64,000 nt of DNA. Origin: an uncultured Paracoccaceae bacterium (lineage in GTDB: Bacteria; Pseudomonadota; Alphaproteobacteria; Rhodobacterales; Rhodobacteraceae). Positions within the stretch are counted from its first letter, which is position 1. Each line of letters begins with the position of its first letter. Positions 3,003-33,372 of the stretch are shown piece by piece. The notes beneath the pieces are model-generated. The model made no database searches. It was not told the DNA's origin and worked only from the letters and a program-made list of their open reading frames with translations. The DNA lies in the NCBI GenBank assembly GCA_937922155.1, contig CAKZVL010000018.1, forward strand, positions 1 to 64,000, in the 5' to 3' direction. A program made the position numbers and the translations under genes.

Positions 3003-3079
<77 letters not shown>

Positions 3080-17265: not shown

Positions 17266-18473
17266 GGCGCGTTGTCATCACCGGTGCGGGGACGATCAAC
17301 CCGCTCGGGTCTGATGTGGCAACGACGCTTGAGGCTATGCGCGAAGGGCGGTGCGGGATTGGGCCGCTAAAGCTGGATTATGCGGATCGGTTGCAAATTC
17401 AAATCGGTGGGCAGATTGCCGATTATGATGAGCATGAACATTTCAACCGCCAGCAAATCGCCCTTTATGACCGTTTTACCCAGTTTACTTTGCTGGCCGC
17501 GCGGGAGGCGTTGGCGCAGTCGGGGTTGACGTTTTCAGGGCACTTGGCTGACCGTTCTGGTGTTGTGCTTGGCACGTCGGGCGGTGGGCTGACGACGCAG
17601 GATGAAAATTACCGCGCTGTTTATGAGGAGGGCAAGAATAGGGTTCATCCCTTTGTCGTCCCCAAGTTGATGAACAATGCGGCTGCCAGCCATGTGTCGA
17701 TTGAGTGGAATTTGCGTGGGCCGTCGTTCACCGTAGCGACCGCCTGTGCATCCTCCAATCACGCGATGGGACAGGCGTTTAACATGGTCCGCTGCGGCAT
17801 GGCGGATGTAATGATCACGGGTGGATCTGAAAGCATGTTATGCTTTGGCGGGATCAAAGCCTGGGAAGGCTTGCGGGTGATGTCAAAGGATGCGTGCCGC
17901 CCGTTTTCAGCGACCCGCAACGGCATGGTTCAGGGCGAAGGCGCGGGTGTTTTTGTGTTTGAAGAATACGAAAACGCCAAGGCACGCGGCGCTGAAATCT
18001 TATGTGAAGTTGCTGGGTTTGCGATGTCCTCTGATGCGTCGGACATTGTGATGCCATCCAAACAGGGGGCGGCGCGTGCCATTCTGGGGGCAGTCACTGA
18101 TGCGCAGATCGCCAAAGAACGCGTGGGATATATCAACGCCCATGGCACTGGTACGGCGGCGAATGATAAAACCGAATGTGCCGCTGTTGCGGATGTGTTT
18201 GGGGCGCATGCGGATCAGCTGATGATGTCATCAACAAAATCAATGCATGGGCATTTGATCGGTGGCACCGGCGCTGTGGAGCTGTTGGCCTGTATTATGG
18301 CGGTGCGCGATGGGGTCATTGCGCCAACGATTGGCTATGAAGAGCCGGACCCGGAATGCGCATTGGACGTGGTTCCAAACGTGGCGCGCGACGCCAAGGT
18401 AGACGTCGCGCTGTCCAATGCGTTTGCTTTTGGCGGCTTGAACGCGGTGATCGCGTTGCAAAAGGCGCCTTAG
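17262..18473 (+). CDS. Beta-ketoacyl-ACP synthase (KAS II/FabF family)
   Basis: ATGA overlap with ACP gene; Cys-His-His triad: TVATACASSNHA, NAHGTGTAANDKTE, STKSMHGHLIGGTGAVE. Confidence 0.93.
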   Translation: MRRVVITGAGTINPLGSDVATTLEAMREGRCGIGPLKLDYADRLQIQIGGQIADYDEHEHFNRQQIALYDRFTQFTLLAAREALAQSGLTFSGHLADRSGVVLGTSGGGLTTQDENYRAVYEEGKNRVHPFVVPKLMNNAAASHVSIEWNLRGPSFTVATACASSNHAMGQAFNMVRCGMADVMITGGSESMLCFGGIKAWEGLRVMSKDACRPFSATRNGMVQGEGAGVFVFEEYENAKARGAEILCEVAGFAMSSDASDIVMPSKQGAARAILGAVTDAQIAKERVGYINAHGTGTAANDKTECAAVADVFGAHADQLMMSSTKSMHGHLIGGTGAVELLACIMAVRDGVIAPTIGYEEPDPECALDVVPNVARDAKVDVALSNAFAFGGLNAVIALQKAP

Positions 18474-19057
18474 TTTCCGGTTGTGGCCTCTAGCGCGGCT
18501 GTGAACCCGGCCAGCGAGACGTCTAAACGGACTTCTTCCTCTGGGGCGCCGGCTGGGACCAAACGGACCACAGCGTTATTGCCGAGTTTGAATTGGTCAA
18601 CCTCCGCTTGGGTGAATCCGACGCGTGCCACACAACCGCCGACATTGCAGAAGGTAAAGGCATAGGTGCGCGCTTCGCCGCCATCAACTGTGATGGTGAG
18701 CTGTTCTGTCAAAAGCGTCTCGAGCGGAGCCACGATTGTCGCACCCGCCGCTGCACGGCCGCCGGGGGGAAGCGCGAACATCGACATTTCAGCGACGGCG
18801 TTTCCATCCTGATCCACTAGCAATTGATAAAGCTGACAGGGATCGGGGCCTTCCTCTTGTTTCAGGCAGCGCAGGGACCAATCATCAAAAACCGCCGCCA
18901 CATAGCTTTGGCCGGGCTGTGGTTCGCTTGGCGCTTCGTTGACGGGGGTTCCCAGATCAAGGTCTTGGGCGGGATCGTCGGCTGTTTCCTGCGCGAAAGA
19001 GGGCGTGGCGCACAGAAAGGCAAGGGCCAGGGTGGCTGATTTCTTGAGTGTTAACAT
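18470..19057 (-). CDS. Invasion-associated locus B (IalB) family protein
   Basis: Signal peptide ALAFLCATPSFAQ; FDDWSLRC and YAFTFCNVGGCVARVGFTQAEVDQFK typical of IalB. Confidence 0.85.
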   Translation of the reverse strand: MLTLKKSATLALAFLCATPSFAQETADDPAQDLDLGTPVNEAPSEPQPGQSYVAAVFDDWSLRCLKQEEGPDPCQLYQLLVDQDGNAVAEMSMFALPPGGRAAAGATIVAPLETLLTEQLTITVDGGEARTYAFTFCNVGGCVARVGFTQAEVDQFKLGNNAVVRLVPAGAPEEEVRLDVSLAGFTAALEATTGN

Positions 19058-19152
19058 TGAAAGGCTCCGCTCTATTATTTTGCGGCTGTCCTAACATGGC
19101 GCGAGGACCTTGTCAGGCGCAAAACATCGTGATCGGCAAGGACCCATTGAGA

Positions 19153-19183
19153 CGAAAAAAGGGACCCAGCGGATCCCCTTTTT
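19153..19183 (-). terminator. Rho-independent terminator or attenuator hairpin upstream of the IalB gene
   Basis: AAAAAAGGGACCCAGCGGATCCCCTTTTT, about 13 bp stem with A/T tracts on both sides (bidirectional). Confidence 0.75.
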
Positions 19184-19215
19184 ACTATTCTCCCTGCCGG
19201 ACTGCGCCAGCTTGT

Positions 19216-19251
19216 GGATAGATTCCTAAAGCAGGGAGTTTATGGCGTCAA
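19216..19251 (-). promoter_or_regulatory. Candidate sigma70-type promoter for the IalB leader
   Basis: Minus strand TTGACG (19251-19246), 17 nt spacer, TAGGAA (19228-19223). Confidence 0.45.
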
Positions 19252-19401: not shown

Positions 19402-19520
19402 AGAAAAAAGCCGCACCCGAGGGTGCGGCCAGTCTGACAGGGAGGTGTCATCCGCGCTGCACCAGGGGGAGAAGTGCTGCGCGGGGTGTCTTTACTCTGG
19501 CACATAGGGGTTAAGAATGT
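19402..19520 (-). ncRNA. Candidate small RNA with two C-rich-loop hairpins and Rho-independent terminator
   Basis: Minus strand: CCGCGCAGCAC-UUCUCCCCCUG-GUGCAGCGCGG (19484-19452), UGACA-CCUCCC-UGUCA (19450-19435), terminator GGCCGCACCCUCGGGUGCGGCUUUUUUCUG (19430-19401); no ORF. Confidence 0.6.
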
Positions 19521-19557
19521 ATTTTAAGCGAGAATTTGAACAAACATAGGCGGATCA

Positions 19558-21096
19558 ATGGATCGCATTTTTGTAGGTGGTGGCGCGGCAGACTATGGCG
19601 TGGCGCAGGATTTGTTGCTGAACAAGGCGAACCGACACGGGTTGGTGGCCGGGGCCACAGGGACGGGGAAAACCGTGACGTTGCAGATTTTGGCCGAAGG
19701 GTTTTCTGCGGCGGGGGTGCCTGTGTTCTTGTCGGACGTGAAGGGCGATTTGTCAGGGCTTGCGGCATCCGGGACGCCTGATTTCAAACTGCATGATGCG
19801 TTTATGAAGCGATCTGCGACCATCGGCCTTGATCTGACCTATGATAAATTCCCGGTGACGTTTTGGGATTTGTTTGGGGAGCAAGGCCACCCGATCCGCG
19901 CCACGGTGGCAGAGATGGGGCCGCTGCTTTTGTCGCGCCTGATGGAGCTGACCGACGTGCAAGAGGGCGTGTTGAACGTCGCCTTTCGGGTTGCGGACGA
20001 AGAAGGTCTGCCGCTGTTGGACCTCAAGGATTTGCAATCGCTGTTGGTTTGGGTTGGTCAAAATGCCAAGGAGCTGTCGTTGCGCTATGGCAATGTTGCG
20101 TCTTCATCCGTGGGTGCGATCCAGCGGCAATTGTTGGTTTTGGAAAATCAGGGCGGCACCAAGTTGTTTGGGGAGCCTGCGCTGAATTTGGATGACATCA
20201 TTCGCACTGAGGCGGATGGGCGCGGTGTGGTGAACATTCTGGCGGCGGATAAGCTGATGGGCAGTCCACGGCTTTATGCCACGTTCCTTTTGTGGTTGTT
20301 GTCAGAGCTGTTTGAAGAACTGCCAGAGGTTGGAAACCCGGATAAACCCAAGCTCGTGTTCTTTTTTGATGAAGCGCATTTGTTGTTTGATGGCGCGCCA
20401 AAGGCCTTGGTAGATAAGGTTGAGCAGGTTGCCCGATTGATCCGATCCAAGGGGGTTGGTGTGTTTTTCATCACGCAAAACCCCACGGATGTGCCCGAAG
20501 ATGTGCTGGGCCAGTTGGGGAACCGTGTTCAGCATGCGCTGCGCGCGTTTACGGCCAAGGATAACAAGGCGCTGAAGCAGGCGGCGGAAACCTATCGCCC
20601 TAATCCGGTGTTTGATACCGCAGAAGCGATCCAAGAGGTTGGAACGGGGGAGGCTGTGACCTCACTTTTGGACGAAGACGGTATTCCGGGGATTGTGGAA
20701 CGCACCTTGATCCGCCCGCCATCATCGCAGCTTGGCCCGATCACGGCAGCAGAGCGCAAAGCGATCATGGATGCCTCGCCCATGGCGGGCAAGTATGATG
20801 CGACGATGGATCGCGAGAGTGCCTATGAAATTTTGGGAAAGCGCGCCGCTGACGCCGCAGTGGCGGCGGAGAAGGCTGAAGAGGAAGAAGAAAAAGCAGA
20901 GCTGGAGCTGAAAGAATTTAAGAAGGCGCGCCGCTATGATGCGCCACAAGCGGGGCGGTCAACGTCGCGCCGCAGGTCGACTCGAGATACCAGTTTTGGC
21001 GGCGCTATGGCCAGCGTTGTGATCAAGGAATTGAAGGGGACGACCGGAAAGCGGATCGTGCGCGGTATCCTTGGTGGATTGTTTAAGGGCCGTTAG
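19558..21096 (+). CDS. HerA-like/DUF853 (YjgR-type) P-loop ATPase
   Basis: [12 protein letters not shown] Walker [14 protein letters not shown] Walker [12 protein letters not shown]. Confidence 0.93.
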
Positions 21097-32325: not shown

Positions 32326-33372
32326 CTAAGAAATGCGAATGCGTGGATTAAGGAAGACGTAGCCGATGTCAGAAATCAGCTGCGTGACCAGAACCACGAA
32401 GACGGAGACGACAGAAACCGCCAAGAGCAATTCGATGTCGTTGTTGGAGGCCGCTTGGAACAAGGTCCAGCCAAAACCTTTGTAGTTGAACAGGGTCTCG
32501 ACGATGACGACACCGTTGAGCAACCACGGGAACTGCAACATGATCACAGTGAAAGGCGCGATTAGCGCGTTGCGCAACGCGTGGCGCAGAACGATGGTGC
32601 GAAAGTTAACGCCCTTGAGCCGGGCGGTGCGGATGTATTGCGCTGTCATGACCTCTGTCATGGAAGCGCGGGTCATGCGCGCGATATAACCCATCCCATA
32701 AAGCGCGATGGTGATGACCGGTAAGAAAAAGTTGATGAAATTCGCATCGTCCATGGCGGCGGTGGCCGTGCCCTTGAAATACTGCATCCCAAAGAGCGGT
32801 GTGGCGAAAGCGGCGATGAACACAACGCCCGAGACATATTCAGGCGTCGCCGTTGATATGATCGAAACGGTTGATAGGCTGCGGTCGGTTCCTGATCCTT
32901 CGCGCATGCCTGCGAGCACACCGATGATCAGCGCGCCGGGCACCATGACCATCATCACCCAGAACATCAGTTTTCCGGTCAGGGCGAGGCGCTTGGCGAT
33001 AATGGTGCTCACGTCCTCTTTGAAAACGGTGGAAAAACCCCATTCGTTTTGCAGGATGCCGCAAAATCGCGGCGCTTCTTCGATGGGTTGTTCGAAGGCG
33101 ACGCAGCGGCCACGGGTTTCACCATCGCTGCCTTCGATCACATAGCCGGGCAGGACGCCAAGCCATTGGCCGTATTTCTGTGGAAGGGATTGTTTGTAGC
33201 CACGGTTCGTCAAATAGCTGGTCACGGCTTCGTCCGACATGCGGAAGTTGCCTTGGGTTTTGGCCAGTTTTTCGAGGTTTGGCGTCAGGTTCGTCAGCCA
33301 GAAGACGACGAAGGTGAGGCAAAGCGCCGTCAATATCATCACCCCGAGGCGCCGTAGGATAAACAGTCCCAT
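32326..33372 (-). CDS. ABC transporter permease (DppB-like)
   Basis: MGLFILRRLGVMILTALCLTFVVFWLTNL; YIRTARLKGVNFRTIVLRHALRNALI. Confidence 0.92.
   Translation of the reverse strand: MGLFILRRLGVMILTALCLTFVVFWLTNLTPNLEKLAKTQGNFRMSDEAVTSYLTNRGYKQSLPQKYGQWLGVLPGYVIEGSDGETRGRCVAFEQPIEEAPRFCGILQNEWGFSTVFKEDVSTIIAKRLALTGKLMFWVMMVMVPGALIIGVLAGMREGSGTDRSLSTVSIISTATPEYVSGVVFIAAFATPLFGMQYFKGTATAAMDDANFINFFLPVITIALYGMGYIARMTRASMTEVMTAQYIRTARLKGVNFRTIVLRHALRNALIAPFTVIMLQFPWLLNGVVIVETLFNYKGFGWTLFQAASNNDIELLLAVSVVSVFVVLVTQLISDIGYVFLNPRIRIS

Follow-up and report, generated by a model that had tools for sequence, protein, structure and literature searches.

Gene content of the ialB-herA interval

The window (the whole stretch of DNA analysed here, 64,000 nucleotides) comes from a genome whose sequence spans 2.99 Mb over 179 contigs. 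A minus-strand ialB gene (positions 18470-19057; Pfam PF06776, E = 7.6e-37) and a plus-strand herA-like gene (19558-21096; Pfam PF05872 HerA_C, E = 3.3e-224) flank an intergenic region that is best explained by two predicted minus-strand sRNA genes in tandem, here called A and, after it, B. The original prediction had placed a single sRNA candidate, corresponding to A, between these two neighbours in an interval without a gene; the Pfam matches confirm both neighbours, and no protein gene was found in the region of A. A minus-strand open reading frame of 63 aa (19505-19314) was rejected as the source of a small protein because it has no Pfam match and no frame is kept open among relatives of A, the three frames being open in 46, 64 and 57 of 100 segments.

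Both flanking genes have promoter-like blocks. That of ialB is separate from B and reads CTGACA-N13-ATGTTA (19092-19116, minus strand), and it was detected in 97 of 110 loci compared with 0.2% of shuffles. That of herA, read from the sequence, is sigma-70-like (CTGGCA-N17-TATTTT; 19497-19525, plus strand), and the form TGGCA-N16-19-TATT, found in 0.2% of shuffles, occurs in 24/55 loci; the block is divergent and overlaps the presumed promoter block of A on the opposite strand. Elsewhere on the plus strand, the window contains a match to Rfam RF02647 Cis52_sRNA (Ruegeria cis52) at 32571-32749 (113 bits, cut-off 56) and a tRNA-Arg (ccg) gene at 3003-3079.

BLASTN searches with the region gave matches in 21 of 61 genomes (the window's own and relatives), nearly all of them in the ialB-herA interval, and a protein search with herA gave matches in 128 of 151 genomes of the family. 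Counts for A and B refer to 113 regions upstream of herA and related loci, which were scanned with profiles made from the sequences of the first ~20 loci. A was detected in 101 of the 113 and B in 111. The 99 loci with both elements have them on one and the same strand without exception, and homologues of A are syntenic with ialB and herA in most genera.

Anatomy and conservation of sRNA A

A is predicted as an RNA of ~95-115 nt (about 19403-19500, minus strand), and the three consecutive minus-strand hairpins described in the original prediction are all present. The 126-nt minus-strand region has a folding energy of -51.3 kcal/mol, and dinucleotide shuffles average -32.8 kcal/mol (z = -5.5, with 0/200 shuffles equalling it); the terminator accounts for part of this stability. 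As MAFFT alignments of B and of the 5' half of A were too poor for RNAalifold to show stems, these were assessed by swapping arms and by counting stems. Hairpin 1 (19452-19484, loop UUCUCCCCCUG) has 11 pairs and one A.A mismatch in the minimum-free-energy fold. In 46 relatives with a UCCUC/UCCUU motif, split at the motif and not at the fold, the arms of hairpin 1 pair with their own partner at a mean of -17.8 kcal/mol and with permuted partners at -10.9 kcal/mol (0/5000 permutations), demonstrating at the level of sequence that this hairpin covaries across relatives. Its loop contains CCUC or UCCU in 37 of 99 relatives compared with 7% of shuffles.

Hairpin 2 (UGACA/CCUCCC/UGUCA, 19435-19450) is present in the window and is not conserved, with at least four pairs in just 31 of 99 relatives, and the conserved part of its site is the core CUUCCUCCCUGUCAGACUGGCCG, which indicates that the core of A is kept as sequence rather than as this hairpin. 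Of the two anti-Shine-Dalgarno hairpin loops that had been proposed, the first therefore has support among relatives and the second does not; likewise, the compensatory changes named beforehand as the refutation test for both stems were found in stem 1 and not in stem 2. The conserved core in the window, CACCUCCCUGUCAGACUGGCCG (19426-19447), is the presumed seed for ribosome-binding sites and the site matched by B, and its CUCCCUG is invariant in 37 of 37 aligned relatives. The intrinsic terminator with its six-T run (19404-19430) shows double changes at six of nine pairs in 37 relatives.

Upstream of A lies a conserved block, AATACA-N3-TTAACC-N6-TGCCAGAGT (19492-19524), which is presumed to be a promoter or regulatory site. 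Its TTAAC-N-TGCCA portion is found in 46 of 55 loci versus 1.3% of shuffles, and its wider conserved form is (A)ATAC-N-TTAAC-N-TGCCA. The TAAAAT that had been pointed out as a -10-like element at 19526-19521 is present, but this wider block is what relatives conserve instead. The block is partly retained in loci without herA (L002, L013, L090), and the TTAACC within it could be a regulator half-site. With its synteny, the covariation of hairpin 1 and the CCUC-type motifs, A looks like a real sRNA conserved across the Rhodobacteraceae, and the earlier description of a minus-strand, terminator-ended and probably trans-acting sRNA holds.

A as a third sibling of SorX and SorY

In an Rfam scan of the A/B locus, no family reached its cut-off. 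The best score for A was with SorX (RF02784; 30.6 bits, E = 7.8e-6, or 2.4e-5 genome-wide; gathering cut-off 46.6), followed by SorY (RF02651; 23.2 bits, cut-off 111), alpha-r14 (RF02344; 21.8 bits, cut-off 58.8) and suhB/alpha-r8 (RF00519; 20.3 bits, cut-off 41). Formal membership of A in any of these four families was rejected, every score being below the Rfam cut-off. Kinship with the alpha-r14 RNAs, which have two hairpins with CCUCCUCCC loops, had been suggested originally and is supported neither by this score nor by the second hairpin of A, which relatives do not conserve. The suggested kinship with the CcsR RNAs also fails: these are processed from the transcript of ccaF1 (DUF1127), and no ccaF1-like gene lies upstream of A, where herA is divergent and two small minus-strand open reading frames have no Pfam match.

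Run over the window genome, the SorX model returns three separate loci, namely SorX, SorY and, as the third hit, A, and it also separates the three in most of ten genomes tested. We conclude from this that SorX and SorY have a third sibling in the predicted A. In the window genome, the SorY-like copy lies beside a purL-like start (G000:C168) and the SorX-like copy after a response-regulator gene (C120). SorY-like loci were found in 373 of 397 family genomes, mostly with two matches each, and neither ialB nor herA is present at the best-scoring 30 of them. With the SorY locus separate in the window genome and in relatives, the identity of A with SorY was rejected, as was its identity with StsR, which is RSs0827 at another locus. 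A also carries the feature of the sibling group, a CUCCCUGU-N-N-GACU-N-G core after a hairpin and just before the terminator. The alpha-r8 10-mer UUUCCUCCCU matches the A core at 9-10 of 10 positions in 82 relatives and at 7/10 in the window, and none of ten family genomes has a suhB/alpha-r8 copy above the cut-off.

A second sRNA gene, B

B is a predicted RNA of ~60-75 nt (19155-19217, minus strand), downstream of A and on the same strand, at a median distance of 141 nt from the A core (240 nt in the window). At the loci with B, the consensus is a promoter followed by (A)AGUCGGCCAGUCCGACAGGGAG and, ~60 nt further on, by a terminator-like stem. The promoter, TTGAC-N16/18-TA, is found in 111/111 loci, with a spacer that is nearly always 17 and a -10 that is usually TAGCGT. 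The window copy of B is divergent; its promoter (TTGACG-N17-TAGGAA, 19223-19251, minus strand) is weaker at the -10 element, and its 5' hairpin and Shine-Dalgarno-like tail, AGCUGGCGCAGUCCGGCAGGGAG (19190-19212, minus strand), are near the reverse complement of the core of A, SorX and SorY. Of 111 loci, 109 retain the hairpin GUCGG/CCGAC, in which exchanges such as U-A to C-G occur, and a terminator-like stem, in the window AAAAAGGGGAUCCGCUGGGUCCCUUUUUU (19155-19183, minus strand; -13.2 kcal/mol), is likewise present in 109 of 111. Rfam gave nothing relevant for B.

B occurs without A in 12 loci, including one in a sister species within the window's genus (L054, G001), where A was apparently lost and B retained. 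Outside the family, a search of 143 genomes of the class for a B-like motif returned chance-level three-mismatch matches only, so B seems to be restricted to the family. Because a promoter-like block of ialB itself lies further downstream, B need not be merely a leader. The original reading of the interval was thus right as to an sRNA and incomplete in missing the gene for B, whose 5' end runs antisense to the core of A and whose presence alters the likely biology.

Complementarity of B to A, SorX and SorY

The 5' part of B approximates the reverse complement of the A core (5'-CUCCCUGUCAGACUGGCCG-3' versus 5'-CGGCCAGUCCGACAGGGAG-3'). Mean duplex energies were -36.9 kcal/mol for cognate pairs, -36.1 kcal/mol for permuted partners (0/5000) and -18.2 kcal/mol for shuffled A, the small cognate advantage reflecting the high conservation of both cores. 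The share of paired positions in 59 gap-free genomes is 94%, a value reached in 4 of 2000 permutations; both permutation tests ignore kinship among genomes. Matched changes in A and B include a G-C pair replaced by U-A at position 15 (L012, L082) and an A-U pair at position 11 (L168).

The A-B duplex has a central A.C mismatch that 46 of 59 genomes keep. SorX and SorY have a G that is paired at this position, so that A is a poorer fit to B than either of them. In all ten genomes for which duplexes were computed, B is complementary to both SorX and SorY, at -35.0 to -44.4 kcal/mol. In the window genome the values are -34.7 for A-B, -39.8 for SorX-B and -39.9 kcal/mol for SorY-B, with unrelated window sites reaching -38 kcal/mol, and A did not come out as the top partner when the window was scanned by energy with the B core that it contains. 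The case for A-B pairing rests on conservation and not on the duplex energy of one genome. The conserved complementarity to a seed common to several siblings, by which a sponge would be recognised, is present in B, and this breadth, together with the 12 loci that have B and not A, suggests that B probably serves the whole sibling group.

Probable identity of B with UdsE in Rhodobacter sphaeroides

One of the genomes compared (G078) has, on contig C4, SorY at 1632645 and SorX at 2598225, in agreement with 1,632,642 and 2,598,224 as published for R. sphaeroides 2.4.1 (PMC6238624); on the strength of this match, the family is taken to be the Rhodobacteraceae. The gene order there is fabF, ialB, B, A, catalase and LysR-type regulator, with A and B at about 1,426,500-1,426,800 on the minus strand of chromosome 1. 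These loci (L090/L174) are without herA, the catalase and regulator genes adjoining A instead, and A lies downstream of katE on the same strand, where it could also originate from a 3' UTR. The same genome has a weak SorX-like match of 34.4 bits (C5:918847-918916), perhaps a fourth sibling, and a sub-threshold suhB/alpha-r8 match of 32 bits (C4:1639296-1639375, L196), possibly the R. sphaeroides representative of alpha-r8.

Since katE of R. sphaeroides is RSP_2779 (PMC3413700) and ialB adjoins it in G078, ialB is probably RSP_2778, and B is probably RSs2778, or UdsE, in R. sphaeroides 2.4.1. UdsE is a 5'-UTR-derived sRNA whose 5' end is a transcription start site and which is affected by RNase E and PNPase; by RT-PCR it is to some extent co-transcribed with the downstream mRNA (PMC8625941). 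UdsE is thus known as a 5'-UTR sRNA with its own start, and B lies beside ialB, which adjoins katE in that genome. Neither a function for UdsE nor a link to SorX or SorY was found in the literature searched.

A proposed repressor-antagonist pair and its alternatives

The reading that we favour, and consider reasonably probable, is that the two tandem genes encode an anti-Shine-Dalgarno repressor (A) and a sponge (B) for A, SorX and SorY. We infer that both would be transcribed in the host, possibly with a dependence on Hfq. A would consist of a 5' hairpin, a mostly single-stranded anti-Shine-Dalgarno core (CUUCCUCCCUGU...) and a terminator, and its core would most likely pair with the ribosome-binding regions of mRNAs and repress them, probably by covering the ribosome-binding sites as SisA does (PMC12559287). 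B would be a short RNA with a sigma-70-type promoter of its own, and its 5' end, GUCGG-CCAGU-CCGAC-AGGGAG, is predicted to form ~14-20 bp with the core that the three siblings have in common, most likely sequestering these RNAs or decaying together with them. A wider proposal, which we put forward tentatively and would not yet call probable, is that B (UdsE in R. sphaeroides) acts throughout the family as a sponge, setting the threshold of three stress-linked anti-Shine-Dalgarno sRNAs (SorX, SorY and A), and that, being encoded beside A, it forms with A a linked repressor-antagonist module retained through most of the Rhodobacteraceae.

The main rival to the sponge is an UpsM-like leader role, in which B would be a leader or attenuator of ialB and A, SorX and SorY would alter its termination or RNase E cleavage in trans. 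In its favour, B precedes ialB on their common strand, UdsE, which B probably is, derives from a 5' UTR, is co-transcribed with an mRNA and is affected by RNase E (PMC8625941), and there is a precedent in R. sphaeroides in the action of StsR on the UpsM/dcw leader (PMC11354728). Against this stand the terminator-like stem of B in 109 of 111 loci and the separate promoter-like block of ialB in 97 of 110, and we regard the leader role as unlikely, although it deserves consideration.

Less probable still is that A is a stand-alone anti-Shine-Dalgarno sRNA, in line with the original prediction, and B is unrelated to it, their complementarity arising merely from a Shine-Dalgarno-like stretch. A does have CCUC motifs in loop 1 and in its core, and any AGGGAG stretch would pair with CUCCCU; however, the match with B also spans the GUC-GACU-GGCC half, which a Shine-Dalgarno sequence does not need, and it co-varies with A. 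We give little credence to a third explanation, that the complementarity is an inverted repeat acting within one read-through RNA or as DNA (a long hairpin, or attenuation). A read-through transcript of two genes in tandem on one strand could fold back on itself, but between the two genes stand the strong terminator of the first and the separate promoter of the second, B is found without A in 12 loci, and the target site also occurs in SorX and SorY, at other places in the genome. That the A region is a set of chance hairpins with no RNA, for which the Rfam scores below cut-off at the locus could be cited, is scarcely credible given family-wide synteny, covariation and a conserved core.

Comparison with known systems

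SorX and A have the same layout of a hairpin, a CCUCCCUGU-N-GA-CU-GGCC core and a terminator, and they differ in that SorX arises by cleavage of the 3' UTR of a gene for an OmpR-type regulator, whereas A stands alone beside ialB, between ialB and herA, and has an A at the core centre where SorX has a G. SorY resembles A in having its own gene and the same core and layout, at a different locus. The layout of the alpha-r8/MmgR/SisA-D RNAs, a weak hairpin, a single-stranded UUUCCUCCCU core and a terminator, resembles the one predicted for A; unlike them, A does not adjoin an N-formylglutamate amidohydrolase gene and has the extended GUC-GACU-GGCC half in its core.

SorX, which targets a spermidine transporter, and SorY, which targets a malate transporter, belong to the few stress sRNAs of alphaproteobacteria whose targets are known, and the literature searched contained no antagonist of either. 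The sponge reading makes B a concrete candidate for this role in R. sphaeroides, a model organism, and B is probably an sRNA already detected there on Northern blots with no function given. The StsR-UpsM pair of R. sphaeroides is a case of one sRNA targeting another in the same family, with a different locus and different RNAs, UpsM being the dcw leader. The closest tested likeness to B is Caulobacter CrfA (2025), a proven sponge that inactivates the four alpha-r8 siblings SisA-D through the core UUUCCUCCCU (PMC12559287). In both cases one RNA is complementary to an anti-Shine-Dalgarno core common to several siblings, and B differs from CrfA in its sigma-70-type promoter, its linkage to one sibling and its longer, family-specific pairing; the likeness is one of logic, and no homology is claimed. 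If the proposal is true, the Caulobacter-type logic of a sponge set against siblings would also operate in the Rhodobacteraceae, with other RNAs.
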